Virus record (IMG/VR): IMGVR_UViG_3300020187_000159
Coordinates: 1-28,379 of that record
Reading direction: 5' to 3' (one strand)
Origin: a virus
DNA length: 28,379 nt
Part shown: positions 306 to 18,410 of the stretch, in pieces
How the letters are laid out: every line of letters starts with the position of its first letter
Numbering within the stretch: the stretch's first letter is position 1
Program-made: the position numbers and the translations under genes
Notes under the pieces: model-generated
What the model saw: the letters and a program-made list of their open reading frames with translations, nothing else
Database searches by the model: none
What the model was told of the DNA's origin: nothing

Positions 306-427
306 TGAGCGATACAAAAGAAGTGTTAATCGAAGTTTCACCTATTCCCGAAACTGAGGAACAGAGAAAAGCCCGAGAACTTGCCGAAATCAAGACCGAG
401 TTCGGAATTCTAGTAGAAGAAGCTTGA
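305..427 (+). CDS. 40-residue acidic soluble protein
   Basis: ATG overlaps the last base of the previous TAA; the frame stays open to TGA at 425-427. The product is short, acidic and probably helical in its second half (EEQRKARELAEIKTEFG). It has no membrane segment and no recognised family. Its stop codon lies inside the -35 hexamer of the promoter for the next transcription unit, so this gene ends the left-hand mini-operon. Confidence 0.5.
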   Translation: MSDTKEVLIEVSPIPETEEQRKARELAEIKTEFGILVEEA

Positions 428-452
428 CAAACAGGGGCTTATTTGCTATAAT
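424..452 (+). promoter_or_regulatory. Consensus sigma70 promoter for the radical SAM operon
   Basis: TTGACA (424-429), a 17-base spacer and TATAAT (447-452): all twelve hexamer positions match the host vegetative sigma70 consensus. Predicted transcription start is about 459, giving a short leader before the gene at 485, which has an AAGGTG ribosome-binding site at 474-479. A perfect promoter like this is typical of phage early transcription by unmodified host polymerase. No other convincing promoter or terminator was seen before 13917. Confidence 0.8.
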
Positions 453-484: not shown

Positions 485-793
485 ATGTATCTCAATCTCG
501 GCAACTCCCTTAACTACACTACCAATGGTCGCAAGCGCAAGAAGCTACCAGCAAAGAAAGCGCATAAAAGAAAGTTCGAGACATATGTGCCTAAGCAAAC
601 GGCATATGTAAGAGAGACTCCCAACTACCCCAGTGTGACTACAGCAGCCTCTGCTGAGTCATGTTCTAAGCCTACTCGTGTGTCATACACTGGTACACTT
701 GTCAAAGGAATAGCAACTATGCACAAGTCTAATGCAGTGCCTATCATCAATGACCAAGAAGCAACCGATATTGCAAATATGAGGCGTGGTTAG
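485..793 (+). CDS. Conserved small basic phage protein
   Basis: 102 residues. The N-terminal third is very basic (GRKRKKLPAKKAHKRK), the middle is rich in Ser/Thr/Pro, and the C-terminus (TGTLVKGIATMHKSNAVPII, then NDQEATDIANMRRG) looks folded and helical. From memory this C-terminal block recurs in small uncharacterised proteins of marine T4-like phages; no function is known to me. It is the first gene after the consensus early promoter, so it is probably made early. A nucleic-acid-binding role is possible from the charge but is only a guess. Its TAG overlaps the GTG start of the methyltransferase. Confidence 0.75.
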   Translation: MYLNLGNSLNYTTNGRKRKKLPAKKAHKRKFETYVPKQTAYVRETPNYPSVTTAASAESCSKPTRVSYTGTLVKGIATMHKSNAVPIINDQEATDIANMRRG

Positions 794-1401
794 TGAAAAT
801 AGATTTTGATTTAGTGTCTAGATGGATGTATGAGATACGAGAAAATCCGAGAATGTTGGATTGTTTTTGGCCTAGTCAAATTGCAAGCAAAAAGTGGCTG
901 ATAGAAAATCTCGAGGAAGAGTCATACTGGCGTGGACATATGGGAGACATTGTAATCTTTGGCGGCTGGTATGGCGTACTTGCCCAAATGTTACATCAAA
1001 AATATCCTGGTAACTATATAAGTGTAGATGCTGATCCGTCTTGTGAAGAAGTGTTCAATAGAATAAACACAAATTCACAGATAAAGTTTAAAAATGTTTG
1101 CATGTCCGATTATGATTACAGTGATTGTCTCTTTTTAGATATGGTAATCAATACAAGCAGTGAACATGTCAGTCAAGAAGTCTATGCACAGTGGTGGGGT
1201 AACATTCCTAGGGGTACTAAATATATTGTACAGGGCAATAACTTTTTTGAGACAGATGAGCATGTGAGATGCACTGATACCCTTGAAGAATTTGTTACTA
1301 TTAACTATCTAGAAAGCGCAAAGATAAAAAAGACTCTTAACTGCGGCATGAGACCAGACGGTTCTCCTTTCTATCGTTTCATGGCAATAGGTATTAAATA
1401 A
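793..1401 (+). CDS. Class I SAM-dependent methyltransferase-like protein
   Basis: 202 residues starting at GTG overlapping the upstream stop. A Rossmann motif I-like glycine stretch is at about 53-62 (IVIFGGWYGV), followed by a beta-strand and acidic residues D79/D81 (ISVDADP) that would hold the SAM ribose, and a motif IV-like segment VINTSSEHV at 118-126. The N-terminal WPSQIASKKWL helix precedes the fold. Length fits a single-domain enzyme. The methyl acceptor is unknown. As the gene opens the enzyme series and lies two bases before the first radical SAM gene, it probably acts on the same substrate as that cluster. A methyltransferase fold is likely; a nucleic-acid target cannot be excluded. 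Confidence 0.7.
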   Translation: MKIDFDLVSRWMYEIRENPRMLDCFWPSQIASKKWLIENLEEESYWRGHMGDIVIFGGWYGVLAQMLHQKYPGNYISVDADPSCEEVFNRINTNSQIKFKNVCMSDYDYSDCLFLDMVINTSSEHVSQEVYAQWWGNIPRGTKYIVQGNNFFETDEHVRCTDTLEEFVTINYLESAKIKKTLNCGMRPDGSPFYRFMAIGIK

Positions 1402-1403
1402 TT

Positions 1404-2876
1404 ATGAATGACAAAAACAATTTAATACCTCTAACTAATTTAGATGAAGATATTAGAGGCGATCAGGTAATAGCTACACTCGATGGGGCATATAAGAGTG
1501 TCTATTTTGATAATACTAAAGATATGTTAGAGGGGCTAAATGAAGTTAGTCCTTCATTCTGTTTAGCTAAGTGGTTCAATGTTAGTATTCACATACCTAC
1601 AGGAAGAACTCATAGCTGTTATCACCCTCCTACTCACAAAGTTCCTTTAGAAGAATTAAAAGAAAATCCTGGTGCCTTGCATAATACAAAATATAAAAAA
1701 GAACAGAGAAAAAAAATGTTATTGGGTGAGAGACCTGACGAATGTTCCTTTTGTTGGCAACTCGAAGATGCTGGCAACATGTCAGATAGGGCGTACAGAA
1801 GTTTTGATGTGAATGCAGAGGGAGTAATAGAAGAAGCCCTTTCACACGGTGTATCTGGAAATCCTTCTCCCAAATATCTTGAAGTCAATTTTAGTCAAGC
1901 ATGTAATCTAAAGTGTGCGTATTGTTCTCCCCACTTGTCCACAGAATGGCATAAAGAAGTCAAGCAACACGGAGCATATATTTTAACTGATAGGTCACAT
2001 AATGATCCTTCTTTTCTGATGGGTGAAGGCGGGTGGGCCCCTGATAATTCGTTAGATAATCCCTATCTGTTAGCATTTTGGGATTGGTTCCCAACAGTTT
2101 ATAGTGAGTTGCAAACATTTAGAATGACGGGCGGCGAGCCACTGATGGATAAGAATACATTCAAAATTTTTGATTATGTAAAAAAGAATCCGTCTGACAA
2201 GTTACATTTGAGTATTACAAGTAACTGCTGTCCGCCAAAGAATCAATGGCAAAAATTTATCACTGACCTCAAAGAAATTACTGATGTCAATGCCATAGAT
2301 CATTTTATGTTATATTGTAGTTTAGATACTTGGGGCGAACAAGCAGAATACATTCGAACAGGAATGGACTTTGATGTGTTACATAAAAATGTTATTCAGT
2401 ACTTAACAGAAAGCGAAAGACATTCACTAACATTTATTGTAACCTGCAATCTTTTATGTCTTCCTAGTTTTCCTAAACTATTTGAAAACATTCTAAAACT
2501 AAGACAGACATATAACACAGATCGACAGTTAGTATGGTTTGACACTCCTATGTTACACGATCCAAAGTGGATGAGTATGAAACTTGCATCAAAAGAGATG
2601 TTACATCCGCTACTAAATATAATAGAGTTTATGCAAGAAAATAAAGAGACCACTATAAATCGTTATAAGGGATTTAAAGACTACGAGATAGATAAGTTAC
2701 AGCGACTATATGATTGGGCAGCAGAGCCTATGCAACCAGAAGAAGAAATTCTCCATAAGAAAAACTTCATTGCTCACTTTAGACAGCATGATGAAAGAAG
2801 AAATACCAATTTGAAAACAATGTTCCCAGAAATATTGCCATTTATAGAAGAATGTGAGGCCTTGATTGATGAGTAA
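1404..2876 (+). CDS. Radical SAM protein 1 with N-terminal twitch-like domain (subtype A)
   Basis: 490 residues. The core cluster motif C-x3-C-x2-C is at C167/C171/C174 (CNLKCAYC) and the SAM-binding GGEP is at 243-246. Before the core is a cysteine-rich domain (C53, C72, C114, C117, with conserved His in SCYHPPTH) that could hold an auxiliary Fe-S cluster; this placement fits the N-terminal twitch radical SAM family. Later landmarks are EYIRTGMDFDVLHKN and the C-terminal DERRNTNLKTMFPE block shared by all seven paralogues. It has about 30 extra N-terminal residues compared with the next two proteins. It should cleave SAM to the 5'-deoxyadenosyl radical; the substrate is unknown. The next gene starts inside its 3' end. 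Confidence 0.9.
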   Translation: MNDKNNLIPLTNLDEDIRGDQVIATLDGAYKSVYFDNTKDMLEGLNEVSPSFCLAKWFNVSIHIPTGRTHSCYHPPTHKVPLEELKENPGALHNTKYKKEQRKKMLLGERPDECSFCWQLEDAGNMSDRAYRSFDVNAEGVIEEALSHGVSGNPSPKYLEVNFSQACNLKCAYCSPHLSTEWHKEVKQHGAYILTDRSHNDPSFLMGEGGWAPDNSLDNPYLLAFWDWFPTVYSELQTFRMTGGEPLMDKNTFKIFDYVKKNPSDKLHLSITSNCCPPKNQWQKFITDLKEITDVNAIDHFMLYCSLDTWGEQAEYIRTGMDFDVLHKNVIQYLTESERHSLTFIVTCNLLCLPSFPKLFENILKLRQTYNTDRQLVWFDTPMLHDPKWMSMKLASKEMLHPLLNIIEFMQENKETTINRYKGFKDYEIDKLQRLYDWAAEPMQPEEEILHKKNFIAHFRQHDERRNTNLKTMFPEILPFIEECEALIDE

Positions 2877-4380
2877 CGAAAACAGTTTATTAGAATATAG
2901 GAAAAGAGTAGTTGATGAAATCAGTCCATCATTCTGTGGAGCTAAATGGTTTAACGCTACAATTTGGCTAGGTCACGGTCAAACTGCTTCTTGTCACCAT
3001 CCACCGTCACATGCAATTGATCTTGAAGAACTCAAGGACAATCCTTCGGCTATTCATAACACCAAGCACAAAAAAGAAATGCGTAAGATGATGCTCCATG
3101 GTGTTCGCCCCAACGAATGTGAATACTGTTGGAAAATTGAAGACATGGGCAAAGATCATATCTCTGACCGTGTGATGAAGTCTTTAACCTTTAAGGATGA
3201 AGAAAACTTTTCGACTGAAGAAATGGGCTGGGATGCTGATGTCAATCTAAAGACATTAGAGATAAGTTTCGACCGTACATGTAATTTTTCTTGTTCATAC
3301 TGCAATCCTTCGTTCAGTTCGTCTTGGGTGAAAGATATTAAGAAAAACGGTCCTTATCAAAACATTACAAGTGACGGCAGAGACCATTATGTTTCTACGC
3401 ACGAGTATTCAGCTAATGCTGCTGCTAAAGAAGAAGATAATCCATATATTCAAGCATTTTGGAAATGGTTCAATAGCGAGTTACAGTACGAGTTAAGAGA
3501 ACTCAGAATTACTGGCGGAGAACCTTTGATGGCAGCTTCTGTATGGAAACTGTTTGATTGGTTCAGAGATAATCCTGAACGTGCAGAAACTTTAAAGTAT
3601 GCAATTAATTCTAACTTAGTTCCGAAGAAAGAATTAATGGATAGATTAGTTGCCTCGTCTAAGAGTGTGCCTTTTCTTGACATATACACTAGCCAAGAAG
3701 CCACTGGAGCAATTGCTGAATACATTCGTGATGGTCTTGATTATGACCAATGGTTAGCAAATGTTGAACGACTAATTACTGAAGGCAAAGTAAATCAAAT
3801 CGTTTGTATGTCTACTATTAATAGCTTATGTTTGCCTGGTCTAGTTGACTTCATGGAAACTGCTAGAAAAATTAAAAGAAAGTATGGTAGACAGTATCTT
3901 ACTACTTCTTTGAATATGCTCAGATTCCCAAGTTTTCAGGCAGTAGCTATCTTGCCTCCTGAAATTAAAACTAAGTATAAGATAGAAATTGAAAACTGGT
4001 ATAAAGAAATAGTGTCAGTTATGAAAATTGATTTAGACCCATTTGGTATTCAGTTGTATTCAGAATGGGAATTGTCTCAAATCGAAAGACTTATTGACTA
4101 CTTAGATGTTATCAAAACTCCTCATTCGTTTACTGCAACTACTGACAAGTTATACAATGACTTCAGGCAGTTCTTTTTACAATATGACGAAAGAAGAGGT
4201 AAAAACTTTAGAGAAGTATTCCCGAAAGAGTATGTTGATTTTATAGACAGTATTCCAGATCCTACTCCTGATGAATCGAGAGCAAATTTAATTCCTTTGG
4301 TACATGTTCAAGATCCAGCTCCAGATCATATGACTGGCGGCGGCTATATAAGCGATGAGTTAAAAAATGGAAAGGAATGA
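2869..4380 (+). CDS. Radical SAM protein 2 with N-terminal twitch-like domain (subtype A)
   Basis: 503 residues from ATG at 2869, eight bases inside the upstream gene; a TTG one codon earlier is less likely. The radical SAM motif is C138/C142/C145 (CNFSCSYC), with GGEP at 216-219. N-terminal cysteines C23, C42, C84 and C87 align with those of the neighbouring genes (ISPSFCGAKW, SCHHPPSH, CEYCW). EYIRDGLDYDQWLANV and DERRGKNFREVFPKEY complete the shared signatures. A roughly 40-residue C-terminal tail rich in Asp, Pro and Gly is unique to this copy and contains NLIPL, also present at the N-terminus of radical SAM 1. Closest relatives by eye are the flanking proteins, which suggests tandem duplication. 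Confidence 0.9.
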   Translation: MSNENSLLEYRKRVVDEISPSFCGAKWFNATIWLGHGQTASCHHPPSHAIDLEELKDNPSAIHNTKHKKEMRKMMLHGVRPNECEYCWKIEDMGKDHISDRVMKSLTFKDEENFSTEEMGWDADVNLKTLEISFDRTCNFSCSYCNPSFSSSWVKDIKKNGPYQNITSDGRDHYVSTHEYSANAAAKEEDNPYIQAFWKWFNSELQYELRELRITGGEPLMAASVWKLFDWFRDNPERAETLKYAINSNLVPKKELMDRLVASSKSVPFLDIYTSQEATGAIAEYIRDGLDYDQWLANVERLITEGKVNQIVCMSTINSLCLPGLVDFMETARKIKRKYGRQYLTTSLNMLRFPSFQAVAILPPEIKTKYKIEIENWYKEIVSVMKIDLDPFGIQLYSEWELSQIERLIDYLDVIKTPHSFTATTDKLYNDFRQFFLQYDERRGKNFREVFPKEYVDFIDSIPDPTPDESRANLIPLVHVQDPAPDHMTGGGYISDELKNGKE

Positions 4381-5776
4381 CCAGTTATTAAAATTTAAAG
4401 AAATAGTTCTTGATCCTATCAGCCCTTCTGTGTGTAGTGCTAAGTGGCTAGAGACTACGATGTGGTTATATGACGGAGTAACTGCGTCTTGTCATCATAA
4501 CCCTTCTCACAAAATACAACTAGATCCAAATGATCCGTCGTCTTTGCATAATACTGCACAAAAAATAAATGAAAGAAAAGCTATGTTAGCAGGAGAAAAG
4601 CCTAGCGGATGTAGTTATTGTTGGAACACAGAAGATAATAATAGTATTAGTGATAGATACAGAAAGTCTCATGCACACAAAACTGCTATGCTTAAAATAC
4701 CTATGGAATTAGAAAGTGATACTGAATTATCTACCGCCAGTAAAGCGTATCAGAAAAAAGTTTTCACCAGTGTAAATGATGCATCTCCTACACATCTTGA
4801 AATTGCTTTTAGCAGAGTGTGCAACTTAGGTTGTATGTATTGTGGTCCATATTTTAGTAATACATGGGCGAACGATATCAGGGTAAACGGTCCATATGAG
4901 ATCCGAGATAAGAATCATTATGATACAAGATTCGAAGATTGGATGCCTGAAATTAAAGATGAAGAAGACAACCCCTATATAAAAGCATTTTTCCAATGGT
5001 GGCCAGAATTAAAAAAGACATTGATGAATTTGAGATTTACAGGCGGTGAACCTTTTTTACATGCAGCGATGTGGAAATTTTTAAAAGAAGCAGTATCTGA
5101 TCCCATGTATAAGGGAGATATATTAATAAATTCTAATCTGATACACAATAGAAAATTATTAGAAAAGTTTATTGATATTGCAAATATACCAATTATAGGC
5201 AGTGAAAACAAATTACGAAAATTTCAAATTCATACTAGTTGTGAAAGTAGTTTAACTGATTCTGAATATATTCGTGATGGGTTTGATGGTAAGGTTTGGC
5301 TAGAAAATGTAAATACACTGTTGTCTTCGGTGCCCAATTTAAAAATAACAGTCACTACTGCAATAAATAATATTGCAATTTGGTCATACGATGATTATAT
5401 TGATACTATAATTGACTTGAGGTTAAAATATGGCAGTCATCGAATCAATCTAAATTCTAACCGAGTATTTCATCCGGTCTATCAACAAATAGCAATGATT
5501 GATATCGAGCGGCGAATGAAACTGAAAGATATGCTTATTATTAGCAGAAAAAAATTAAAAGATTCTGGTGTCTCTAATAAATATGATTTCGATCAATTAG
5601 ATTCTTTGATAAATTATACGGGAGAGCTACATACCTCTTCACATGACTCCGCTGAAGAGAAAGCGTTGATTAAATTTTTAGATGAATATAATATCAGAAG
5701 AAATAAAGACGAAACTACACTGTCCGCCGGATATCTAGATTGGATTTATGAACTAAGAGAAAGACATGATAAATAA
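4367..5776 (+). CDS. Radical SAM protein 3 with N-terminal twitch-like domain (subtype A)
   Basis: 469 residues, overlapping the upstream gene by 14 bases. The motif is C152/C156/C159 (CNLGCMYC), GGEP at 226-229, N-terminal cysteines C23, C42, C82 and C85 in the same pattern as the two preceding paralogues (ISPSVCSAKW, SCHHNPSH, CSYCW). An insertion of about 35 residues lies between the N-terminal domain and the core. EYIRDGFDGKVWLENV is present; the C-terminal signature is degenerate (EYNIRRNKDETTLSAGYLDW), making this the most diverged of the three subtype A copies. All catalytic landmarks are intact, so it is probably active. Substrate unknown. Confidence 0.9.
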   Translation: MERNDQLLKFKEIVLDPISPSVCSAKWLETTMWLYDGVTASCHHNPSHKIQLDPNDPSSLHNTAQKINERKAMLAGEKPSGCSYCWNTEDNNSISDRYRKSHAHKTAMLKIPMELESDTELSTASKAYQKKVFTSVNDASPTHLEIAFSRVCNLGCMYCGPYFSNTWANDIRVNGPYEIRDKNHYDTRFEDWMPEIKDEEDNPYIKAFFQWWPELKKTLMNLRFTGGEPFLHAAMWKFLKEAVSDPMYKGDILINSNLIHNRKLLEKFIDIANIPIIGSENKLRKFQIHTSCESSLTDSEYIRDGFDGKVWLENVNTLLSSVPNLKITVTTAINNIAIWSYDDYIDTIIDLRLKYGSHRINLNSNRVFHPVYQQIAMIDIERRMKLKDMLIISRKKLKDSGVSNKYDFDQLDSLINYTGELHTSSHDSAEEKALIKFLDEYNIRRNKDETTLSAGYLDWIYELRERHDK

Positions 5777-7052
5777 GCCAGAAAATTTGTGTCTCATACC
5801 CTGGCTAGGATTTAGTAATAATCCTAATGGAGTTGCTCAGCCGTGTTGTATCTACAAAGGAAACATAAAAGACGAACTAGGTAATGATTTGTATGTACAA
5901 AAAACTGCTGTAAAAGATATTTTTGCTTCTGATTATATGCAAAATTTACGACAGGCATTTCGAGAAAATAAAAAACCTGTTGGTTGTGAAACTTGCTGGA
6001 AAGACGAAGCTAATGGGTATCGAAGCAAAAGAATGATATACAGTGAAAATGGTTTCTTTACAGATCCCAACTATGATGGACAGGTGGATTGGAAAGAAGA
6101 GCCAGAGTTCCCGCAAGAATATCAAATGATTATAAACAACAGTTGCAACTTGAAATGTAGATCATGTGGACCTAGCCACAGTTCGTTGTGGCAACAAGAA
6201 AATGTAAAGTTTGATGGTAATTCTGGTTTTGACATGCCATTCAAGCAAGCAGGTGATAAGCAAGGTGAATTGTGGAATACAAGACATGAATGGTATCCAC
6301 ATTTGCGGCACTTAGAAGTAGTAGGGGGAGAGCCAATGTTTATCAAGCAGTGGCATAAAGTATTTGATGAATTGATTGAATTGGGGCATTCAAAAAACAT
6401 TACGCTTGACATGAGTTCTAATTGTACTATAATTATACCAGAACTGCTATTAAAATTAAAACGAAATTTTCGCCGAGTTGGTATAGGGTTGAGCGTTGAT
6501 GGGACAGAAGATATTTATGAATACTTGAGGCATCCTGGTAAGTGGGATGAAGTATATTCTAATATGAAATTTTATAATGATTTTCATGTAGAGAATTGTA
6601 CCGGAGATCATCAAGTTTTGCTGCATCCATATAATGACAACCTAAACATTCAAGTCACATATACTATTGGCTGGTTGAATGCGTTAGATTTGATCAAAAT
6701 ACACAAATTAGTAAAAAAAGAGTTTCCTAGATTTAAAAAAATATGGAATAATATAATACATTGGCCAGAATTTATGTCAATTAACAATGCGCCAGAAGAA
6801 TTGAAAATTCTTATATCACACGAATGGGGCAGCTATGATTGGGGCGAATATGAAAATGATATTAATGCAATTGAAGATTTTATGTTTTCTACAGTAACTT
6901 CTCCAGAAGAATTTAAAAGACATTATGGTCAATTTGGCACAGTAGATACCAAAAGAAATGAAAATCTTTGGAATGTGATGCCAGAAAAATACAAGCCTCT
7001 GTTAGAAAAATATACTCACAATAGAGAAATAATCACTAACTATGAAAAATAA
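5766..7052 (+). CDS. Radical SAM protein 4 with N-terminal twitch/SPASM-like domain (subtype B)
   Basis: 428 residues, overlapping the upstream gene by 11 bases. The N-terminal domain follows the subtype B pattern: C9, then CC at 27-28 (AQPCCIYKG) and CETCW at 74-78. This resembles the usual C-terminal SPASM/twitch cluster domain moved to the N-terminus. The core motif is C127/C131/C134 (CNLKCRSC) and the SAM-binding motif is GGEP at 187-190. EYLRHPGKWDEVYSNM and the C-terminal KRNENLWNVMPEKY are the family signatures. It marks the switch from subtype A to B inside the gene array. Reaction and substrate unknown. Confidence 0.9.
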   Translation: MINKPENLCLIPWLGFSNNPNGVAQPCCIYKGNIKDELGNDLYVQKTAVKDIFASDYMQNLRQAFRENKKPVGCETCWKDEANGYRSKRMIYSENGFFTDPNYDGQVDWKEEPEFPQEYQMIINNSCNLKCRSCGPSHSSLWQQENVKFDGNSGFDMPFKQAGDKQGELWNTRHEWYPHLRHLEVVGGEPMFIKQWHKVFDELIELGHSKNITLDMSSNCTIIIPELLLKLKRNFRRVGIGLSVDGTEDIYEYLRHPGKWDEVYSNMKFYNDFHVENCTGDHQVLLHPYNDNLNIQVTYTIGWLNALDLIKIHKLVKKEFPRFKKIWNNIIHWPEFMSINNAPEELKILISHEWGSYDWGEYENDINAIEDFMFSTVTSPEEFKRHYGQFGTVDTKRNENLWNVMPEKYKPLLEKYTHNREIITNYEK

Positions 7053-8451
7053 AATAAATTATACAGATAAAGAATGGGATGATATAAAAAATAACGGTGC
7101 ATATTGTCCAGCACTGTTTAACTCCCTATATCTAAGTCCACAAAGTCAAATAACTAATTGTTGCGTGATGCAAGAGCATGATATGGATTCTGCACCAGTT
7201 GTTACTTCAGATCAAAAAGATATACCGGTAGTAGACCTATTAAATCAAGATTACTTCAGGAACGTAAGAAAAGATGCATTAAATGGCATAAAAAATGAGG
7301 CATGTAATCATTGTTGGAGATCACAAAAACATACACCGGAAAAAGAATATCGACAGACTTTTATTAAATTTTCTAAAAATTTAGACGAACAGATAAGAAA
7401 TAGTGTTTATGAAGATTATACTATAGACTTTAATGTTGTCGAAATGGAACATATGGATGTTAGATTCAGCACACTCTGCAACTTATTATGTAGATCGTGT
7501 TCTAGTGTATTTAGTAGTTCTTGGTATAAAGAAGACTTGGAATATGATAAAATAACCAGATCCCACGAGAAAAATACAAAATGGAAACATGGACTAGCTT
7601 TCAAACCAGGCGCCGCCAGTCTTTCAGTCGAATCTATTATTCCACACTTAGACACAGTGAAAAGACTTTACTTTGCTGGCGGCGAGCCAGTTATGCTAAC
7701 CGAACATTACGAAATCCTTCAATACCTAATAGACACTGGAAGAACAGATGTTAAGTTGTCCTACAATACTAACTTCAGTAAATTAATTTCCGGAAAAAAA
7801 GATATTATACCCTATTGGAAACAGTTTAAAAATATTACGATAGGTGCCAGCCTAGACGGGTCTCACGAGAAGGGTGAGTATATTAGGAAAGGCATTGTTT
7901 GGTCTGAAGTAGAAGAAAATATACAAAGATTGAAAAAAGAGTGTCCTCACATATATTTTTATGTGAGCCCCACCGTGAGTATACTAAACGCATATAATAT
8001 TACGGAATTTCACAGGGAATGGTACGAAAAAGGATATATTAAGATAAACGATTTTAGACTAAATGTATTGTATGGTCCTGAAGCATATTGTTTAGCAAAT
8101 TTACCCAGAAATCATAAAGATGCTTTAATAAAATTATATACAGAACACATCGAATGGATTTTTAAAACTTCACCAGAAACCAAGCTAATGAATTCTACTA
8201 GTCATGATATTATGACAGTATCTGACTATAATAGATTGATAAAATTTATTGACGAAACGCCAGCAAGTCCCGATTGGAAAGATAGTTGGTTTAAACATTT
8301 CTGGACAGATAAAAATAGAAAAGAAAACTTTTTTGAAATATTGCCCGAATACGAAGACTTGAAGCCCATGTTAATAGACAATTTAAAGGATAAACATTTT
8401 GACATCTCGAAAGAAATTCTTATAGAAGTGAAAAACATATATGAAAGCTAA
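7042..8451 (+). CDS. Radical SAM protein 5 with N-terminal twitch/SPASM-like domain (subtype B)
   Basis: 469 residues, 11-base overlap with the upstream gene. N-terminal cysteines are C22, CC at 40-41 (TNCCVMQ) and CNHCW at 88-92. The catalytic motif is C146/C150/C153 (CNLLCRSC), with GGEP at 213-216. EYIRKGIVWSEVEENI and NRKENFFEILPEY match the array-wide signatures. The segment between the core motif and GGEP is about 60 residues, as in the other copies. It is the last of five consecutive radical SAM genes; the oxygenase-like gene starts within its 3' end, so the enzymes are translationally coupled. Confidence 0.9.
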   Translation: MKNKINYTDKEWDDIKNNGAYCPALFNSLYLSPQSQITNCCVMQEHDMDSAPVVTSDQKDIPVVDLLNQDYFRNVRKDALNGIKNEACNHCWRSQKHTPEKEYRQTFIKFSKNLDEQIRNSVYEDYTIDFNVVEMEHMDVRFSTLCNLLCRSCSSVFSSSWYKEDLEYDKITRSHEKNTKWKHGLAFKPGAASLSVESIIPHLDTVKRLYFAGGEPVMLTEHYEILQYLIDTGRTDVKLSYNTNFSKLISGKKDIIPYWKQFKNITIGASLDGSHEKGEYIRKGIVWSEVEENIQRLKKECPHIYFYVSPTVSILNAYNITEFHREWYEKGYIKINDFRLNVLYGPEAYCLANLPRNHKDALIKLYTEHIEWIFKTSPETKLMNSTSHDIMTVSDYNRLIKFIDETPASPDWKDSWFKHFWTDKNRKENFFEILPEYEDLKPMLIDNLKDKHFDISKEILIEVKNIYES

Positions 8452-8986
8452 TCTAATATCAAAAGATTTTGCAGTGTGGGAAATAGAAGAATTCGATTTA
8501 CCAGAAGTTTCTTTCGAAGACGGCGAAGTGTACGAACAAGGAGCTAATGATCCTCGATTAAGAAACACTGTACATATACCTGATGCTGATGAAAGTAATT
8601 CGTTTTATTCTGTGTGGAATAAACATACAGATTTACTAGAGAAACAAATAAAAAAAGATAGCATTAATAATTTAACTGTTTGGCAAATGTGGATCAATGA
8701 AGTAGAAAATTTTAAATGGGGCGACTCTGGTACAGTGAGAATCCTTTCAGACTCCCCAGGATTTAATATGCAATATCATGTTGATAACCGCTTAATTTTT
8801 GGAGTGCTTCTTATCAATCTTATTGACAACACCGATTCTACTGTATTTGAAAATGGATACGTGGCGCCTTCAAAAAAAGGCACAGGAATATTCATGATGA
8901 ATAATAATGATTATCATAAAATAGATGTTACTTCAGATAGACTTATAGGATATCAAACATTAGCTGTAAATAAGTGCCTAGTATGA
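8441..8986 (+). CDS. 2OG-Fe(II) oxygenase-like protein
   Basis: 181 residues. The second half reads like the double-stranded beta-helix of Fe(II)/2-oxoglutarate oxygenases: H113-V-D115 (YHVDNRL) as the first two metal ligands, H159 (DYHKI) as the third, and R167 eight residues on as a possible 2-oxoglutarate carboxylate anchor. The order HxD...H...R and the spacing fit this family. If so, it would hydroxylate or desaturate a substrate using O2 in the cytoplasm. It overlaps radical SAM 5 and the dehydrogenase, both by about 4-11 bases. A non-catalytic cupin is the main alternative. The assignment rests on motif order only. Confidence 0.6.
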   Translation: MKANLISKDFAVWEIEEFDLPEVSFEDGEVYEQGANDPRLRNTVHIPDADESNSFYSVWNKHTDLLEKQIKKDSINNLTVWQMWINEVENFKWGDSGTVRILSDSPGFNMQYHVDNRLIFGVLLINLIDNTDSTVFENGYVAPSKKGTGIFMMNNNDYHKIDVTSDRLIGYQTLAVNKCLV

Positions 8987-9639
8987 ATATAGTAATAATA
9001 GGTCCTGGCAATGATGAGAACAGGTTTGGACGACAATTTGTAAATTTAGCAAAAAAAGATTTACATACGGTACACGAATTCTCATTTAGGACTATAAATG
9101 AATCGCCCCAAGAAATTGCTATTAGATTCAAAGAATTTATTTCAGAAATAGATACAATTAATGTCATGTTGTATAATGTTATGGCAGGGCATTATCCCGG
9201 TAACATATCAAATTTCGAACATACACATCCAGTTAATTTTGAAGAATGGAATGACACATTTATATGTAATGTTTCTTTGCCACATATGTTCTCTTTATCC
9301 TGCTTATCTAAAATGAATGAATCTTCTAGTATTATTTTTATGACTTCTACTGGATCTTATATGCCGCCCAAAGATTTAAATCTTTCGAAATATGCTGGCT
9401 ATTTTGGATCTAAATCGGCACAAAATCATTTGATGTGGGCTTTATCGGATCACAACGACAAAAAAAGTACAGTGTGTTCTATTGCTCCTCATTTCCCGTA
9501 TGAAGATAAGGTAATATCAAATAAAGTAATTTCGTCAACATATAATAAGATAATAAACATAACAAGTGCAGATAGTGGTAAAATATTTGCGTGTTGCCCA
9601 CCCTTGGGCAATATTTTCGTAGAGGAATTAAGAAAATGA
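8983..9639 (+). CDS. Short-chain dehydrogenase/reductase
   Basis: 218 residues from ATG at 8983, which overlaps the upstream stop as ATGA; a GTG nine bases earlier is less likely. The N-terminus is a Rossmann strand and glycine-containing turn (MNIVIIGPGN). CNVSLP (95-100) matches the conserved Asn region of SDRs, serines at 122/125 (MTSTGSY) precede Y140-x3-K144 (YFGSK), the classical catalytic Tyr and Lys. The glycine motif is unusual (GPGNDENRFGR rather than TGxxxGIG), as in diverged SDRs. It probably reduces or oxidises a carbonyl/hydroxyl on the cluster's product with NAD(P)H. Confidence 0.75.
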   Translation: MNIVIIGPGNDENRFGRQFVNLAKKDLHTVHEFSFRTINESPQEIAIRFKEFISEIDTINVMLYNVMAGHYPGNISNFEHTHPVNFEEWNDTFICNVSLPHMFSLSCLSKMNESSSIIFMTSTGSYMPPKDLNLSKYAGYFGSKSAQNHLMWALSDHNDKKSTVCSIAPHFPYEDKVISNKVISSTYNKIINITSADSGKIFACCPPLGNIFVEELRK

Positions 9640-10763
9640 CATTAGATAATGAAAGATTTTTTATTGAATTTTCAGATGGTGATAATCGATGGGATCCATT
9701 TGTTTTATATTTCAATGTAGCACAAAATAATATAACTGCATTTTGGAAAGAATGTTTTATTAAAAATTATATGGGATCAACAGAAGAAAATGATAATCCT
9801 CATTTACTAGACAAGCGATACATGCAAAGAGGATACACTGAAATATCTAGAAATATTGAAGTTGCATGTATAGAAATGAATTATGCCATTAACATCATCA
9901 ACACAAATTTAAATCCGGTAGGATATCCATTCATCGACTTAGAATTTACTCCTGAAAAAGTGAAAAATAAAGATATATATCGTGACCTTATGAATCAAAT
10001 ACATCACCAGTTCGAACTTTTAATTGGACAGGTATGGAATTTGAGTGATTGGTATTTAGATGCTGATGAAAAAACTCGCTGGGCAATTCACCAAATAAAC
10101 AATTATTGTCACGAAATAGAGTCGTATGTAGATGCTGAAAGTGATCTTGATGAAGGATTGGTTTATGGTCAAACCGGATTAAATTTTTGTTGCAACCAAA
10201 ACCGAGATGGCATCAAACGACAAGGCTTTGAGTATTTTGATTTAAGAGAAGAACATCTTGGAGATTTTATGCCCCAAGATCATGGATGGGGAGTAATGAT
10301 TCCATATTACAGCCAATTAGGCAAAACTCCTAGAGAAGCTTTTATGGACAACGATGAACATATTGATAAGAATAATATAACAGCTACTAGATATATGACA
10401 GGTGAAATAAACATTAGCTTGGCTGGTCCAGGTGTGGGACAAGGAATTATCACACCTGTACCTCTAGAAGGCGAGGAAATGATATTTAAAGAATGGCTAG
10501 AATCTAAAGGCTGGGATTATCATGATCCTTCTCTATGTATAGGCACGGCAATTATGGGACAGGTAGATTTTTCATTGTATCCAGGATCAACGTGGAAAGA
10601 TTTAGACTCTCTAGTAAAAAGATGTGATAATATAACTGAAATCGGGTTTGTTGATGAAAATATGAATAAAGTATTAAGTCAAAGATACGATTATACCTGG
10701 CAAGAGCAATATCAAGCTGAATTAGATTACTTTGGTCTAACAAATCCTCACTCACCAGAATAA
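9636..10763 (+). CDS. Unrecognised 375-residue protein of the radical SAM operon
   Basis: ATG at 9636 overlaps the SDR stop (ATGA); a GTG start 45 bases upstream would overlap the SDR more deeply and is less likely. The product is soluble and acidic, with no signal peptide or membrane helix. It is rich in aromatic residues and has His-containing segments (NQIHHQFELLIGQVW; DHGWGVMIPYYSQLGKTP) and a conserved-looking SLAGPGVGQG turn. I do not recognise the family. It sits between the oxygenase/SDR pair and two more radical SAM genes with almost no intergenic space, so it is probably part of the same pathway, as an enzyme, scaffold or substrate carrier. Confidence 0.75.
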   Translation: MTLDNERFFIEFSDGDNRWDPFVLYFNVAQNNITAFWKECFIKNYMGSTEENDNPHLLDKRYMQRGYTEISRNIEVACIEMNYAINIINTNLNPVGYPFIDLEFTPEKVKNKDIYRDLMNQIHHQFELLIGQVWNLSDWYLDADEKTRWAIHQINNYCHEIESYVDAESDLDEGLVYGQTGLNFCCNQNRDGIKRQGFEYFDLREEHLGDFMPQDHGWGVMIPYYSQLGKTPREAFMDNDEHIDKNNITATRYMTGEINISLAGPGVGQGIITPVPLEGEEMIFKEWLESKGWDYHDPSLCIGTAIMGQVDFSLYPGSTWKDLDSLVKRCDNITEIGFVDENMNKVLSQRYDYTWQEQYQAELDYFGLTNPHSPE

Positions 10764-10767
10764 CATT

Positions 10768-11886
10768 ATGAAAGATACTTTTTGCGTATTGCCATATATA
10801 CATGCAGTGTATAATCCATATGATTCTTCTAAAGAAGACTGTAGTGTACTTCCTTGTTGCAGATATGACTTTATGCATGAAACAGAGAATTCCGTTTCTC
10901 ATGAGCCTATAAAAAATTCTGAAATATTTCAAAGATTGCAAACAGAGCTTAGTAGTGGAGTGCAGTCTAAAGGATGCTGGCGGTGCTGGAAAGATGAATC
11001 TATAGGCATCCGGAGTTATAGGCAAGCAAATAATGAAACTTTTTCTGATGTAATTGAATCGGGTGAATATGCTGAAAAACAATTAAGATTTTTAGAAATC
11101 GTTCCTAGTAATGCATGTAACTTAGCGTGTTTGTCTTGCAACTCTGTTCTTTCTAGCAAATGGGTTCCTATTGATAACTTCATAGCTTCTGACAAAAAGA
11201 AGAACACTATTGAATTCACAGATTGGCGAACTCTTGATTTGTCCGGATTAACATATCTAAAGTTGATGGGCGGCGAGCCAATGTTTCTCAAGGACAATTT
11301 AGCGTTGTTGCAGCATCTATCAGTCAATGGTATGCTGAAGAATATTGACTTGCTTGTCATCACTAATTTAATGAATCCGCTAACTGAGAAGTGGAAGGAC
11401 TTGTTTTCAGAATGTAAATCAGTTATGATGTGTGTTAGTATAGATGCAATAGGGCCTCTTAATGAATATATTCGTGCAGATTCTAAATGGGACAGAGTGG
11501 AGAGCAACTTACAAGCTATGTTGGAGTTTTCAAAAAATATTGATATGCAAGTTTTTGTCAATACTGTTATTAGTATCTACAACGTAAACAAGTCCTTGGA
11601 AATTGAAAATTATTTTAAAGATATAAATGTACAAGCATCACAAGACCTTACTAGTTATCCTTTACATATTGATTCTAAGAGATTGCCTACTAAAATAAAA
11701 AAACAGCTTTTGGATTCGAACTGTCTTTCAAAAACAGTAATAGATAATTTAAATTTTGTTGATCAAAAAGATGGATTGATAGAAGAGTTTTTTCAGCATA
11801 CTGACGTATTAGATAAATATCATAAACGAAAGTTCGAAGATTACAACCCAGAGATGGCTAGACTACTGAGAGAAATAAATGAGTGA
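10768..11886 (+). CDS. Radical SAM protein 6 with N-terminal twitch/SPASM-like domain (subtype B, short)
   Basis: 372 residues, the shortest of the seven, starting four bases after the upstream stop. N-terminal ligands: C6 in FCVLPYIH, C25, CC at 30-31 and C70/C73 in GCWRCW. The catalytic motif is C117/C121/C124 (CNLACLSC), with GGEP at 168-171. EYIRADSKWDRVESNL is clear; the C-terminal block is reduced (HKRKFEDYNPEMARLL). The shorter length comes mainly from the region after the SAM-binding half-barrel. The FCVLPxxH opening is shared with the next gene, suggesting these two are a pair from a separate duplication. Confidence 0.9.
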   Translation: MKDTFCVLPYIHAVYNPYDSSKEDCSVLPCCRYDFMHETENSVSHEPIKNSEIFQRLQTELSSGVQSKGCWRCWKDESIGIRSYRQANNETFSDVIESGEYAEKQLRFLEIVPSNACNLACLSCNSVLSSKWVPIDNFIASDKKKNTIEFTDWRTLDLSGLTYLKLMGGEPMFLKDNLALLQHLSVNGMLKNIDLLVITNLMNPLTEKWKDLFSECKSVMMCVSIDAIGPLNEYIRADSKWDRVESNLQAMLEFSKNIDMQVFVNTVISIYNVNKSLEIENYFKDINVQASQDLTSYPLHIDSKRLPTKIKKQLLDSNCLSKTVIDNLNFVDQKDGLIEEFFQHTDVLDKYHKRKFEDYNPEMARLLREINE

Positions 11887-13180
11887 CTCCTCAAGCTGGA
11901 CAGGTCCAGATAGATATTTTAAGAAAGACAATAAAACTTTTTGTGTCTTACCTTTTGTACATATACATGTAGATACTGACGGTATATACAAGCCTTGTTG
12001 TGTAAGTCCTCGTGGATTGTCGCAGGCAGAGGGGCACATGGGTGATGTCACTAAAATTCCTGTCGAAGAGATATTTAACAGCGATGAGATGAAAAAATTT
12101 AGACTTGATGTTTTGAATGGAGTTTCTAGACCAGACATATGTGACACTTGTTATCAAGGAGACGCAGGCGGCTTTAGCACATACAGAACAGGACAAAACG
12201 AAAACTTAAATGATTTGATTGAGTCTAGTATAGAAGCTATGGAGGCCGACGGATATTTAGAACCTAAACTAAAAAGTTGGGACATTCGTTACAGTAATCT
12301 ATGTAATTTAAAATGCAGAACATGTGGCGATCCTTACAGCACTACTTGGTCAAAGGAAGAAGAGAACTTTAATGGCGGTACTTACACTGAATTGAAAGCA
12401 TTTGAAGAAGGCAAAGATCCTTTAGAGAATCAATATGAAAATGTAGAAAAGATATACTTTGCAGGCGGTGAGCCTATGATTATGCCCGAGCATTATGCAG
12501 CATTAACTAAGCTGATTGACATGGATCGTGCTAAAGAGATTCAATTATATTATAACAGCAACATGACTAAACTAAATTACAATAAACATTATATGCCTGA
12601 TTATTGGAAAGAGTTCAAAGAGGTGCGAATCGGATTAAGTATAGATCATTACGGAGATAGGGCTAACTACATACGAAACGGGTCTGTCAAATGGAATAAA
12701 ATTGAAACTAATATAAGGACATTGAAAGGATACCCTAATTTAAAATATTGGATTCAACCTACCATTAGTCTAATGAATGTGTATACCTTGACAGATATGC
12801 ACAAATATTTTTTTGAAAACAATTTAATACCTGATGTAAATAGTATAATGTTTAATATATTATACAATCCTCAACACTGGTCTGTTAAAATATTACCGAG
12901 AAATATTAAAAACGACATACAAGAAAAGATTCGTGTTCACGTTGAGTGGTTCACAGAAAACGGTGGGGCTCCCCCTGCTATAGAACAGTTTATTACTCTA
13001 TCAAAGTATCTTGACGAATCTTTTGAACTAGAACAAGAAAATAGATTCATCAGAGATTTTATCTTTAGGACTAATCAACTAGATTCATTTAGAAACGAGT
13101 CCTTTCCAGAGACCTTTCCTGAATACAGAGAATGGTGGGAAGAAATATCAAAAGATATTATAGCGGTGTCTAATATATGA
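11879..13180 (+). CDS. Radical SAM protein 7 with N-terminal twitch/SPASM-like domain (subtype B)
   Basis: 433 residues, eight-base overlap with radical SAM 6. It has the clearest SPASM-like N-terminus: FCVLPFVHIHVDTDGIYKPC then C41, followed by EEIFNSDEMKKFR and C88/C91 (CDTC), the order seen in C-terminal SPASM domains of peptide-modifying enzymes. The core motif is C142/C146/C149 (CNLKCRTC), GGEP at 196-199. NYIRNGSVKWNKIETNI and FRNESFPETFPEY are the shared signatures. Catalysis should be intact. The overlapping start of the sulfotransferase-like gene shows the operon continues. Confidence 0.9.
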   Translation: MSDSSSWTGPDRYFKKDNKTFCVLPFVHIHVDTDGIYKPCCVSPRGLSQAEGHMGDVTKIPVEEIFNSDEMKKFRLDVLNGVSRPDICDTCYQGDAGGFSTYRTGQNENLNDLIESSIEAMEADGYLEPKLKSWDIRYSNLCNLKCRTCGDPYSTTWSKEEENFNGGTYTELKAFEEGKDPLENQYENVEKIYFAGGEPMIMPEHYAALTKLIDMDRAKEIQLYYNSNMTKLNYNKHYMPDYWKEFKEVRIGLSIDHYGDRANYIRNGSVKWNKIETNIRTLKGYPNLKYWIQPTISLMNVYTLTDMHKYFFENNLIPDVNSIMFNILYNPQHWSVKILPRNIKNDIQEKIRVHVEWFTENGGAPPAIEQFITLSKYLDESFELEQENRFIRDFIFRTNQLDSFRNESFPETFPEYREWWEEISKDIIAVSNI

Positions 13181-13917
13181 AGTACTATGTATATTCTCCT
13201 TTGGGAAGAACCGGAAGCATCAGGGTGTTGCATTATATTAATAGTAGAGATAGAGCATTGGCTATTTCCAAATCTTTTCATTCACATCACGATGAAAAAT
13301 ATGGCGCACATGTTTTCAGAATCAAGAAATCTCAATCCGAAATTGTGGAGAAAGAAGAAAAATTAGATTACACCGTTGTTGATAATGTTAAACACTGGAT
13401 TTTTCCTAAAGAGTTATCTGACTTAGTTCCAGACAGTGTAGCAATGCATTCTCATACATGTATGTGGGCAAAAGACAATGATTGGACACATATTTTAACT
13501 ACTCGCAAAGATAAAACAGAACTTGCAATGAGTCTTATGATAGCTGACAGATCAGGGGATTGGTTAGCTATCCCTAATGATAAAAAAAGTGACATAAAAC
13601 CTTTTAAATTGGATACTCGCCATTATCTCTTTTGTCTTAAACTGTGTGAAGGAAGAGAGCAAGCTTTTTTAAAAGGAGTAAAAAAGGATACAGGTAAAGA
13701 TCCTATTATAATATATTTAGAAGATACTCGTAAAGAAATAGAAGAAAAGTTAGGAATGAAAATAGCTGAAAAATCATTCATGGAAAGAGAAAAACATATT
13801 AGTTCACGAAGACCCAAAGATTATATCCTTAATTATGACGAACTAAAAGAAGTGTATGATGACTTCATAGAAAACAAGGAATATTATATGAGTATTCCTT
13901 TTAAGGATTTATATTAA
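13177..13917 (+). CDS. Sulfotransferase-like protein
   Basis: 246 residues, ATGA overlap with radical SAM 7. The N-terminus (YYVYSPLGRTGSIRVLHYI) has the strand-loop-helix of the PAPS 5'-phosphosulfate-binding loop of sulfotransferases. HSHTCMWAKDNDWTHILTTR followed by KDKTELAMSLMIA resembles the 3'-phosphate-binding strand/helix with its conserved Arg. If right, it transfers sulfate from PAPS to a hydroxyl or amine. It is the last gene of the operon, which fits a finishing step. Nucleotide kinases share a similar loop, but the loop here lacks GKS/T. Moderate confidence in the family, low in the substrate. Confidence 0.6.
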   Translation: MKYYVYSPLGRTGSIRVLHYINSRDRALAISKSFHSHHDEKYGAHVFRIKKSQSEIVEKEEKLDYTVVDNVKHWIFPKELSDLVPDSVAMHSHTCMWAKDNDWTHILTTRKDKTELAMSLMIADRSGDWLAIPNDKKSDIKPFKLDTRHYLFCLKLCEGREQAFLKGVKKDTGKDPIIIYLEDTRKEIEEKLGMKIAEKSFMEREKHISSRRPKDYILNYDELKEVYDDFIENKEYYMSIPFKDLY

Positions 13918-13991
13918 CGAATACTTTAACGTAAACAAAGGATTTTCAGAATAAGTACAAGGTTAAAGTCGTAAGTTAAATAAATAGATGT

Positions 13992-14300
13992 ATGGGAGAC
14001 ATAATACAGTTTAAGACAAAAGAGATAATCGAGACTGAAGATAAAATCATCGGGCACCGTATTTCTTTTTACACAGAAGAAGAGCTAGACATTACGCTTA
14101 TAGCTTTGAATGTCTATGGCTTTGAAGAAGTCAGATTTTCACGCACGAACCTGAAAGACCTAGACCCACTTTACATAAAAAGATGTTTGATTAAGATGAG
14201 AGGTTCTAGTCTTATTTCAACACTAGGATTTAAAGTGATAAATATCATTATCACAAACATTGAAGAAGTAACGGAGAATGATTATGCCGATGAAGTTTAA
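13992..14300 (+). CDS. Uncharacterised 102-residue protein
   Basis: Alternating charged and hydrophobic residues suggest a small mixed alpha/beta domain; no Cys motif, signal or membrane segment. The start is ATG at 13992 with no clear ribosome-binding site; an out-of-frame ATG lies four bases upstream. The 74 bases before it (13918-13991) are AT-rich and hold no convincing hairpin; AATAAATA at 13979-13986 is a weak match to a T4 late element. The next gene overlaps its 3' end. Family not recognised. Confidence 0.6.
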   Translation: MGDIIQFKTKEIIETEDKIIGHRISFYTEEELDITLIALNVYGFEEVRFSRTNLKDLDPLYIKRCLIKMRGSSLISTLGFKVINIIITNIEEVTENDYADEV

Positions 14301-15948: not shown

Positions 15949-16091
15949 TGATTGTAGTTTCAAATCAATATTACTCTGCCAGGTTTTCGTGTATGCAGGA
16001 AGTACTTGACTTTTTTGGTGAAGAAGTATATAATAGTCTTCTAAACAACAATCACTCAGAGCTGAGTATGAGTTATATAACACCTGCATAA
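15948..16091 (+). CDS. 47-residue unknown protein
   Basis: ATG overlaps the upstream TAA by one base, and its own TAA overlaps the next ATG by one base, so three genes in a row share TAATG junctions. The product (MIVVSNQYYSARFSCMQEVL...) has one predicted amphipathic helix and no known motif. A consensus-like promoter lies inside its coding sequence. Confidence 0.5.
   Translation: MIVVSNQYYSARFSCMQEVLDFFGEEVYNSLLNNNHSELSMSYITPA
16006..16034 (+). promoter_or_regulatory. Internal sigma70-like promoter
   Basis: TTGACT (16006-16011), 17-base spacer, TATAAT (16029-16034), lying inside the 47-codon gene. It would start transcription about 50 bases before the 99-residue gene at 16091. One mismatch in the -35. 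Confidence 0.55.
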
Positions 16092-16390
16092 TGGCAAAAA
16101 AAGAACGATACAAATTTCCTAATCCTACTGACCCGACGGCAGAACTTATTAAGCGGCGCCGATTACAGATTCTTATACATTCTTGTATCTATTATGTCCT
16201 CGATACAACTATTATAGCTGATGACAAGTTTGATAATTGGGCGCTAGAATTAGAAAAATTGCTGAAAGATAATCCCGGTCTATATAGTGATAGATTTGAT
16301 TTTGCGTTTGAAAAATGGGATAGCGCATCTGGTTTTGATTTACCCCTACGAGACCCCTGGGTGTTGTCAACTGCCCAACGGATGATTTAA
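16091..16390 (+). CDS. 99-residue protein resembling the ligase Ia domain
   Basis: Residues 26-55 (LQILIHSCIYYVLDTTIIAD then DKFDNWALELEKL) resemble the Ia domain of NAD-dependent DNA ligases, whose motif is Y-x-Y-x-x-D-x-P-x-I-S-D-x-E-Y-D-x-L. No adenylation domain follows, so this cannot be a ligase; it may be a domain remnant or a small binding protein with the same helical hairpin. The C-terminus (SGFDLPLRDPWVLSTAQRM) is distinct. It sits between a tiny gene and a glycosyltransferase-like gene. The resemblance is by eye only. Confidence 0.6.
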   Translation: MAKKERYKFPNPTDPTAELIKRRRLQILIHSCIYYVLDTTIIADDKFDNWALELEKLLKDNPGLYSDRFDFAFEKWDSASGFDLPLRDPWVLSTAQRMI

Positions 16391-16394
16391 TATA

Positions 16395-17249
16395 ATGATA
16401 GATAAAATATTTATACCTACTGTTAATCGTGTTGACAATCAGATTACTTATGACAATTTGCCAGATGCATTGAAGTCAAAAGTAACTATGGTTGTTCAGG
16501 CATGGGAAAGAGAAAAATATGATTATGATTGTGATTATTTGATTCTTCCTGATAATGATGAATATCATTTCAGCCACTACTATTGCATATCAAAAACTAG
16601 AAAGTTTATATATGAAGCTGGACAAGATATCAAGTACGCCGTTTTAGATGACGATTTGTTATTTGGCAGAAGAAATTCCAAGTACTGGACTGGCATTTCT
16701 AACATGAAAAAGTCAAAGAGAAAGTCTACTGAACAAGATGTGATTGATATGTTTGCAATGTACAGTGATTGGTTAGACGAAGAAAATACCACAATTTGTG
16801 GATGCTCTCATTCAGAGAACCCACCAGGCAACAAAGCCTTTTCACGAAATAGTTCTTTGGGCAGCGCATTATGGATAAACGGCAAAGACTTTAAAGACGA
16901 ATTATCAGAACTTGATTTGACATCTGTTAAAGTTATGGAAGATACTTATTTTCTGTTGCAGCTATTGAGTAGAGGATACGGAAATAAAGTTAGTGAAGAA
17001 TTTATTTTTTTCAATCAAAGTGTTCATAAAAAAAGCATAGCGTCAACAATATGGGATCAGCAAACTTTTGAAAATACACTAAAGGATCATCAAATTGTTG
17101 AGAAAGCTTTTCCAGGAATATTTACAATACTGTATGATGAAAATGGTGAGCGAGTACAGGGTGGTTTCAGAGATTACGGCAAAGTAAGGGTGCAGTGGAG
17201 TAAAGCTTACAATAAAAAAGTAGAGTCTTTAGAACACCTATTTATTTAA
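16395..17249 (+). CDS. GT-A-fold glycosyltransferase-like protein
   Basis: 284 residues. The N-terminus (DKIFIPTVNRVDNQITYDNL) and a following strand are typical of nucleotide-sugar-binding GT-A folds, and YAVLDDDLLFGRR at 81-93 contains a DDD that can serve as the metal-binding DxD. RKFIYEAGQDIKY before it is the usual helix. Phage proteins of this shape include glycosyltransferases that decorate modified DNA bases and others that act on surface glycans; I cannot tell which. No hydroxymethylase or other base-modification gene is in the window. No clear ribosome-binding site was seen. Confidence 0.55.
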   Translation: MIDKIFIPTVNRVDNQITYDNLPDALKSKVTMVVQAWEREKYDYDCDYLILPDNDEYHFSHYYCISKTRKFIYEAGQDIKYAVLDDDLLFGRRNSKYWTGISNMKKSKRKSTEQDVIDMFAMYSDWLDEENTTICGCSHSENPPGNKAFSRNSSLGSALWINGKDFKDELSELDLTSVKVMEDTYFLLQLLSRGYGNKVSEEFIFFNQSVHKKSIASTIWDQQTFENTLKDHQIVEKAFPGIFTILYDENGERVQGGFRDYGKVRVQWSKAYNKKVESLEHLFI

Positions 17250-18020: not shown

Positions 18021-18407
18021 ATGAAAATTTTAGTTTTAATTGCAGCACTAGTACCATCCCTTGCGCTTGCTCAGATTGAAATTGTTTCTGAAAAGCCTAA
18101 ATATGTTATGGTCACCCAACAAGAGTGTGAGACACGAGAAGTGTATGTCGAAAACTCACTCGGCAGTTCTATCGTAGGCGGTGTCATCGGAGCAGCTATC
18201 GGCAATGAGATTGGTGGTGGTTCTGGAAGAAAGATCGCTACTGTGGTCGGCGCTATCACAGGAGCTAATGTTGGTAGAACACGAGCCCAAAACAAAGGAA
18301 GAATGGAATATCGTAATGTTTGTCGTGATGTACAAGTACAAGTACAGCGTGGCAAGTATATCACAATGCGCTACGAAGGAAAGTTACACACAATCCTAGT
18401 AGATTAG
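18021..18407 (+). CDS. Secreted glycine-zipper (2TM) envelope protein
   Basis: 128 residues. A signal peptide (MKILVLIAALVPSLALA) with predicted cleavage after A17 precedes QIEIV; there is no lipobox Cys, so it is not a lipoprotein. Residues 48-86 form a glycine-zipper pair (GGVIGAAIGNEIGGGSG, then VVGAITGANVG) like the 17-kDa surface antigen/SlyB family, which inserts in the outer membrane. C36 and C101 could form a disulfide. AGGAGAAAGAC precedes ATG. As it lies just upstream of the lysin gene, an envelope role during infection, such as spanin-like outer membrane disruption or host-surface alteration, is possible but unproven. Confidence 0.75.
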   Translation: MKILVLIAALVPSLALAQIEIVSEKPKYVMVTQQECETREVYVENSLGSSIVGGVIGAAIGNEIGGGSGRKIATVVGAITGANVGRTRAQNKGRMEYRNVCRDVQVQVQRGKYITMRYEGKLHTILVD

Positions 18408-18410
18408 AAT

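Follow-up and report, generated by a model that had tools for sequence, protein, structure and literature searches.

We examined a 28.4-kb IMG/VR virus record (IMGVR_UViG_3300020187_000159; its full 28,379 nucleotides are referred to as the window) and found a 13-kb run of twelve genes, seven of them coding for radical S-adenosylmethionine (SAM) enzymes, most of which is exchanged as a block between closely related phages. Our preferred reading, to which we assign a probability of about one half, treats this run of a T4-like marine myovirus as an exchangeable island for glycan tailoring, which would rebuild surface sugars of the infected cell (or of the virus). The record carries the genes of a T4-like myovirus (homologues of PhoH, gp59 and gp32, a tail tube and a head-closure protein), and its gp32 is 54–56% identical to cyanophage and pelagiphage proteins.

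The exchange is seen in comparison with two close sister phages, G001 and G002 (the latter comprising loci L161 and L163), which were found by a search with g1, the first gene of the run. The features that define the borders are as follows.

424–452, plus strand: promoter of sigma70 type (TTGACA-17-TATAAT, with TG before the -10 element), preceding the whole run; 12/12 match, 17-base spacer
485–793, plus strand: g0, conserved small phage protein of 102 residues (phrog_27048), 81–94% identical in the sisters
793–1401, plus strand: g1, class I methyltransferase-like, constant core adjoining the cassette, 82–84% identical in the sisters
1409–13937, plus strand: exchangeable cassette g2–g12, 12.5 kb, delimited by blastn against G002 (L161/L163)
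13992–14300, plus strand: g13, constant right flank of the cassette, 82–84% identical in the sisters and 33–46% in L001–L003

By blastn, window and G002 DNA are 88.2% identical over positions 1–1408 and 87.4% identical from 13938 on. Between these positions only short patches of about 67% identity align, in the radical SAM genes g3 and g11. The proteins show the same division: most flank proteins are 82–99% identical to their sister counterparts (gp59 and an SleB hydrolase are lower, at 61–74%), and the best sister matches to cassette proteins are only 25–49% identical. Judged by these alignments, 1409–13937 is a replaceable cassette, swapped as one piece between near-identical flanks. The promoter, g0 and g1 are constant; the exchange affects the enzymes that would set the chemistry and the cap added last. 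The G002 cassette contains seven radical SAM genes and homologues of g9, of the short-chain dehydrogenase (SDR) g8 and of the oxygenase g7 in an order that differs from that of the window, and it ends in a carbamoyltransferase-like gene (474 aa) at the position of g12. G001 has eight radical SAM genes in its cassette, accompanied by an SGNH-like gene and a carbamoyltransferase-like gene. Both sisters hold a carbamoyltransferase-like gene in place of g12; the two were named from their similarity to Pfam-confirmed proteins of L001 and L002. Between G001 and G002, dN/dS is 0.02–0.07 for three radical SAM pairs, the carbamoyltransferase-like pair and g1, and for g9 dS is saturated. Purifying selection on the cassette genes is strong wherever dS is unsaturated.

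A preliminary description of this DNA had proposed a dedicated pathway. In favor of that view, the genes do not occur independently of each other in the closest relatives: the classes recur together in the sisters, the block is replaced as one, and selection is purifying. In the more distant L001, L002 and L003, g1 and radical SAM genes of classes A-B-C(-D) precede the g13 homologue, but the accessory genes differ. Because of this variation, the 13-kb set is better described as a variable repertoire around a core than as one obligate fixed pathway. A more radical version of this idea, namely that recombination has gathered a loose repertoire in which each enzyme acts alone and no common product is made, could draw on the varying accessory genes of close relatives and on the number of radical SAM genes, which ranges from 3 to 21 across 37 related virus records (chosen for carrying this family and giving no prevalence; the highest number is found in a 347-kb record). 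We regard it as highly improbable in view of the joint recurrence of radical SAM types A, B, C and D with g9, SDR and oxygenase, the maintenance of ancient paralogues as separate genes, and the strong purifying selection.

The twelve open reading frames (ORFs) fill positions 793–13917, all on the plus strand, with gaps of 2 and 4 bases and overlaps of 4–14 bases by choice of start. This layout confirms the packed same-strand operon with seven radical SAM genes that had been described before. The twelve genes had also been placed behind one perfect sigma70 promoter. The 12/12 site does exist. A second 12/12 match with a 16-base spacer is found at 6406, within a gene, and the 63 promoter-like matches in the window equal the mean of 63.1 for shuffled sequence, so the promoter match by itself is little proof, but the site is kept in the sisters (identical in G002; TTGACA-17-CATAAT in G001). 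In addition, the first gene downstream of the promoter is g0, which is part of the constant flank, so that at least 13 genes would share the transcript. A sequence scan between 13917 and the following phage genes revealed no terminator-like site.

All seven radical SAM proteins score above the curated whole-protein cut-off of 170 bits for NF033640, the NCBIfam family of N-terminal twitch radical SAM proteins (N_Twi_rSAM), with values of 227–368 bits.

1404–2876, plus strand: g2, N_Twi radical SAM, class A (319 bits; orthologues from L001, L003 and L040 in the tree)
2872–4380, plus strand: g3, N_Twi radical SAM, class B (301 bits)
4367–5776, plus strand: g4, N_Twi radical SAM, class C (239 bits; class by tree)
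5766–7052, plus strand: g5, N_Twi radical SAM, class D (272 bits; SPASM domain N-terminal)
7042–8451, plus strand: g6, N_Twi radical SAM, long branch in the tree (313 bits)
10768–11886, plus strand: g10, N_Twi radical SAM (227 bits; orthologue in G001, 40%)
11879–13180, plus strand: g11, N_Twi radical SAM (368 bits; 48% orthologues in both sisters)

As noted previously, every copy keeps CX3CX2C and GGEP. All seven also share four conserved cysteines near the N-terminus, of which the last two form CX2C; this amounts to a twitch cluster. Unique full-length relatives follow the same pattern, with CX3CX2C in 316/316, GG[DE]P in 315/316 and the spaced four-cysteine pattern in 314/316. In a tree of 107 radical SAM proteins, the window copies require six label changes, each standing apart from the others. 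Six of the seven have orthologues in other phages, and for g6 this tree contains no close orthologue. Recent tandem duplication of one radical SAM gene was considered and rejected, since the seven fall in separate clades and most have orthologues elsewhere; their placement identifies them as old paralogues. A Bacteriovoracaceae locus (L089) contains several of the same classes within one chromosomal cluster. Together with the separate clades, this cluster suggests distinct roles for the enzymes rather than gene amplification.

Twitch/SPASM enzymes often act on peptides. The N-terminal domain profile finds its best specific match among solved structures in the twitch domain of BtrN (PDB 4m7t, E 3e-7), and it also matches SkfB (E 1e-5). 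The radical SAM enzymes could, then, mature a peptide or build a diffusible antimicrobial or signalling metabolite, with the oxygenase, SDR, methyltransferase and carbamoyl or sulfo caps as helpers. The SkfB match would fit such a role, as would a family member in Paenibacillus (L136) that adjoins an SDR and a ketosynthase, and an amidinotransferase-like ORF (weak DDAH match) downstream of the radical SAM genes of phage L040. We still consider this alternative unlikely. The window cassette contains no peptidase, transporter or assembly-line gene, and 793–13917 leaves no free intergenic space for a precursor ORF; the preliminary description had likewise seen no precursor peptide gene. The sole candidate among small ORFs is the constant g0. 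This gene was rejected as a precursor because it is a phage gene of the constant flank, and in L003 a g0-like ORF lies, by eye, away from the cassette.

The remaining cassette genes are listed below.

8441–8986, plus strand: g7, 2-oxoglutarate (2OG)/Fe(II)-oxygenase-like, by an HXD..H..R motif
8974–9639, plus strand: g8, SDR (PF00106, E 3e-5, under the curated cut-off)
9636–10763, plus strand: g9, phage family and recurrent partner of radical SAM cassettes, by family profile and neighbourhood
13177–13917, plus strand: g12, possible sulfotransferase, by GRTGS and R/S motif positions only

The earlier labels for these helper genes fared unequally. The oxygenase and dehydrogenase motifs are conserved in homologues: g7 matches no Pfam profile, but the HXD...H...R metal and cosubstrate motif is kept in 4/4 homologues, which provisionally places it among the 2OG/Fe(II) oxygenases, and the YXXXK motif of g8 is conserved as well. 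The methyltransferase label of g1 is weaker. This protein has no Pfam match and only a weak PDB match across the motif region (3dtn, E 0.0098), with an IFGxWYG motif that is conserved in homologues. As for the sulfotransferase, GRTGS, R110 and S119 of g12 are invariant in three sequences, but these are motif-like positions only: no PDB or Pfam match was found, and the predicted model (pLDDT 35) is unusable for fold comparison.

The family profile of the partner g9 gives strong scores in 15 of the 37 virus records and in 0 of 13 cellular genomes. Its structure is predicted with moderate confidence (pLDDT 68, pTM 0.72); this fold has no match in the PDB and ten in BFVD, all of them uncharacterised phage proteins. 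A wider scan returned at least 537 viral relatives. Among the best 80 of these, 48 have a radical SAM gene at most two genes away; the other 32 show none within four genes. Radical SAM islands are therefore not the only setting of g9. At four of these 32 loci, which we inspected, g9 adjoins a QueD-like gene and a GT8-like ORF. Both labels come from sequence motifs; searching the PDB with the GT8-like ORF gave no conclusive match. In L172, L173 and L179 (ORFs of 750–767 aa), the g9 domain follows, in the same polypeptide, another domain of roughly 400 residues; that of L173, the one of the three that was checked, has no PDB match.

The case for a glycan island comes from the genomic context of relatives, from the match to BtrN, an aminocyclitol dehydrogenase, and from the exchange of the block between near-identical flanks; the published pelagimyophage cassettes and the GT8-like neighbours of g9 also speak for it. 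At 80 viral loci retrieved with g3, the commonest neighbour cluster (99 proteins, 56/80 loci) is a glycogenin-like glycosyltransferase by PDB profile (E 1e-5). Related cassettes are also accompanied by nucleotide-sugar genes (NeuB, cytidylyltransferase, UDP-glucose/GDP-mannose dehydrogenase, DegT aminotransferase, phosphomannomutase and epimerases), and further by class II aldolase, carbamoyltransferase, 2OG oxygenases and SAM synthetase; neighbour clusters 1 and 2 received no assignment. Bacterial members of the family show similar associations. Fusions join the radical SAM protein to a carbamoyltransferase (L119:1066-3867, minus strand), to an FkbM methyltransferase (L152:8948-11194) and to TPR repeats (L095, L101), and the neighbours include carbamoyltransferases (directly in L110, nearby in L092) and DegT (L119). 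Five loci resembling phage contigs with radical SAM cassettes (L082–L085 and L139) are binned as metagenome-assembled genomes of Betaproteobacteria, Verrucomicrobia, Pelagibacter, Rickettsiales and Rhodobacteraceae; their gene order is that of a phage, and they were left out of the bacterial evidence. Two further observations concern this family. The loci L095–L109 belong to one Elusimicrobia bin and carry arrays of large TPR–radical SAM fusions, with many copies on many contigs. At nine related viral loci, MetK (SAM synthetase) is encoded within the radical SAM operon (for example, L027:8253-9350), where it plausibly supplies SAM.

Cassettes in the g3-retrieved loci commonly come after tail-fibre-type genes. 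This position would suit enzymes that act on virion proteins of the phage itself, namely tail fibres or adhesins, through a glycan or by direct protein chemistry, and so would an Asp/Asn hydroxylase that adjoins the cassette in L003. We judge this explanation to be quite unlikely for the window, because its cassette and those of the sisters adjoin PhoH and the replication genes gp59 and gp32, not fibre genes.

A glycosyltransferase does lie near the window cassette: a TET-associated glycosyltransferase (TAGT) gene (16395–17249; PF20691, E 1.5e-9; HMC-glucosyltransferase-like PHROG) and an NAD epimerase gene follow 2.5–5.4 kb downstream. The TAGT gene suggests that the phage may contain glucosylated modified DNA bases, and 2OG oxygenases and radical SAM enzymes both occur in base-modification systems. 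The cassette enzymes might therefore build a hypermodified base or its sugar decoration in concert with this TAGT, 2.5 kb away. The linkage fails in G002, which retains a seven-radical-SAM cassette and has a GT4-type gene at the TAGT position, and related cassettes adjoin tail-fibre genes with nucleotide-sugar genes instead. These facts make DNA hypermodification improbable as the role of the cassette. The same part of the window also holds a 99-aa ORF (16091–16390) that corresponds only to the N-terminal NAD+-binding domain of NAD+-dependent DNA ligase (PF22745, E 4.8e-24), with no remaining ligase; a tRNA-Arg at 17259; and a tmRNA at 18364–18744 with the ARAGORN tag ANDEAFALAA (Rfam matches: tmRNA_permuted, 18408–18653, 101 bits; beta_tmRNA, 18364–18702, 86 bits).

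As to how a glycan-tailoring island may work, we surmise that the constant phage promoter, g0 and the methyltransferase-like g1 would drive the replaceable cassette, perhaps early in infection. The ancient paralogous radical SAM enzymes, the Fe/2OG oxygenase, the dehydrogenase and g9 would remodel a sugar or nucleotide sugar by oxidation, deoxygenation, epimerisation or C-methylation, after which a terminal decorator (g12 in the window, the carbamoyltransferase in the sisters) would cap it. The modified sugar may then be placed on a cell-surface glycan during infection and so change the receptors for competing phages, or alternatively on the phage's own fibres. A stricter form of this proposal, that six to eight non-redundant permuted-twitch radical SAM enzymes act successively on one glycan or nucleotide sugar, is tentative and in our view rather doubtful. 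The preliminary description likewise spoke of tailoring one molecule (a surface glycan, peptide or metabolite); the glycosyltransferases and nucleotide-sugar enzymes of relatives favor the glycan, but such genes are absent from inside the window cassette.

This absence is one of several points that weigh against glycan tailoring. The sugar interpretation rests on relatives. The similarity to BtrN is at the domain level only and does not fix the substrate. The polyketide-type genes beside the radical SAM gene in L136 and the Elusimicrobia TPR fusions show that the family is not confined to glycans. Neither g9 nor g12 has an established fold or activity. Finally, the adjacency to tail-fibre genes in relatives could reflect a shared recombination hotspot.

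Relatives of g3 are encoded on 466 IMG/VR stretches. Among 50,697 annotated phage records, g11-type queries matched only two Vibrio jumbo phages and one single-cell marine virus, and a g5 query matched one faecal phage record. Single-sequence patterns gave no close viral relatives of g8, g9, g10 and g12; searches by profile or by neighbour performed better for these genes. With g11, too, a genome scan from a single sequence found no relative, but an alignment query did.

These phages keep from three to more than twenty iron–sulphur-dependent radical SAM enzymes, which are costly to supply and are under purifying selection where tested. The island offers a way to test which demanding C–H reactions are needed by an infecting phage. 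Should the glycan reading prove right, some of the hypervariable genes in abundant marine T4-like phages would be accounted for, and a large set of uncharacterised radical SAM enzymes that share a permuted domain order would be defined. If the enzymes do act in series, chemistry would swap behind a constant promoter, and phages would trade surface-glycan programmes much as bacteria trade O-antigen clusters. The cassette exchange itself resembles the replacement of such clusters, but we claim no membership in an O-antigen or capsule type because the window cassette contains no glycosyltransferase or nucleotide-sugar gene.

How does this island compare with known systems? The seven proteins are members of NF033640 by cut-off. 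The family name gives no substrate, and the window differs in showing seven distinct old paralogues in one operon. The auxiliary twitch domain of BtrN (2-deoxy-scyllo-inosamine dehydrogenase, an aminocyclitol dehydrogenase) resembles the N-terminal domain of the window proteins, but the matched stretch of BtrN (residues 185–256) lies C-terminal to the radical SAM core, and the twitch domain of the window proteins precedes it in a permuted order. The Vibrio jumbo phages K566 and K567, among the few annotated phage records with this family, have three clustered radical SAM genes (21–26% identity), and their annotation names no methyltransferase/SDR/oxygenase set. That radical SAM cassettes occur in variable regions of T4-like phages was previously known, without a function (PMC7029224, PMC5332604), and we found no paper that gives one to phage radical SAM cassettes. 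The T4-like environmental virus TARA_ERS488813_N000010 resembles the window in its genome type and its many radical SAM genes, 12 according to the part of the report that concerns them, where they are treated as iron–sulphur gene content without pathway or cassette analysis (Nishimura et al. 2017, PMC5332604). A close parallel is the host-recognition cluster of pelagimyophages (Zaragoza-Solas et al. 2020, PMC7029224), which houses radical SAM cassettes alongside tail fibres and O-chain glycosyltransferases. These are also T4-like marine phages that gain and lose such cassettes in a variable region, together with tail fibres and lipopolysaccharide-type glycosyltransferases. In contrast to that study, which mentions radical SAM genes in passing, the present cassette is located by PhoH and gp32, its boundaries are mapped, its exchange as a block is documented, and its partners and domain order are analysed.

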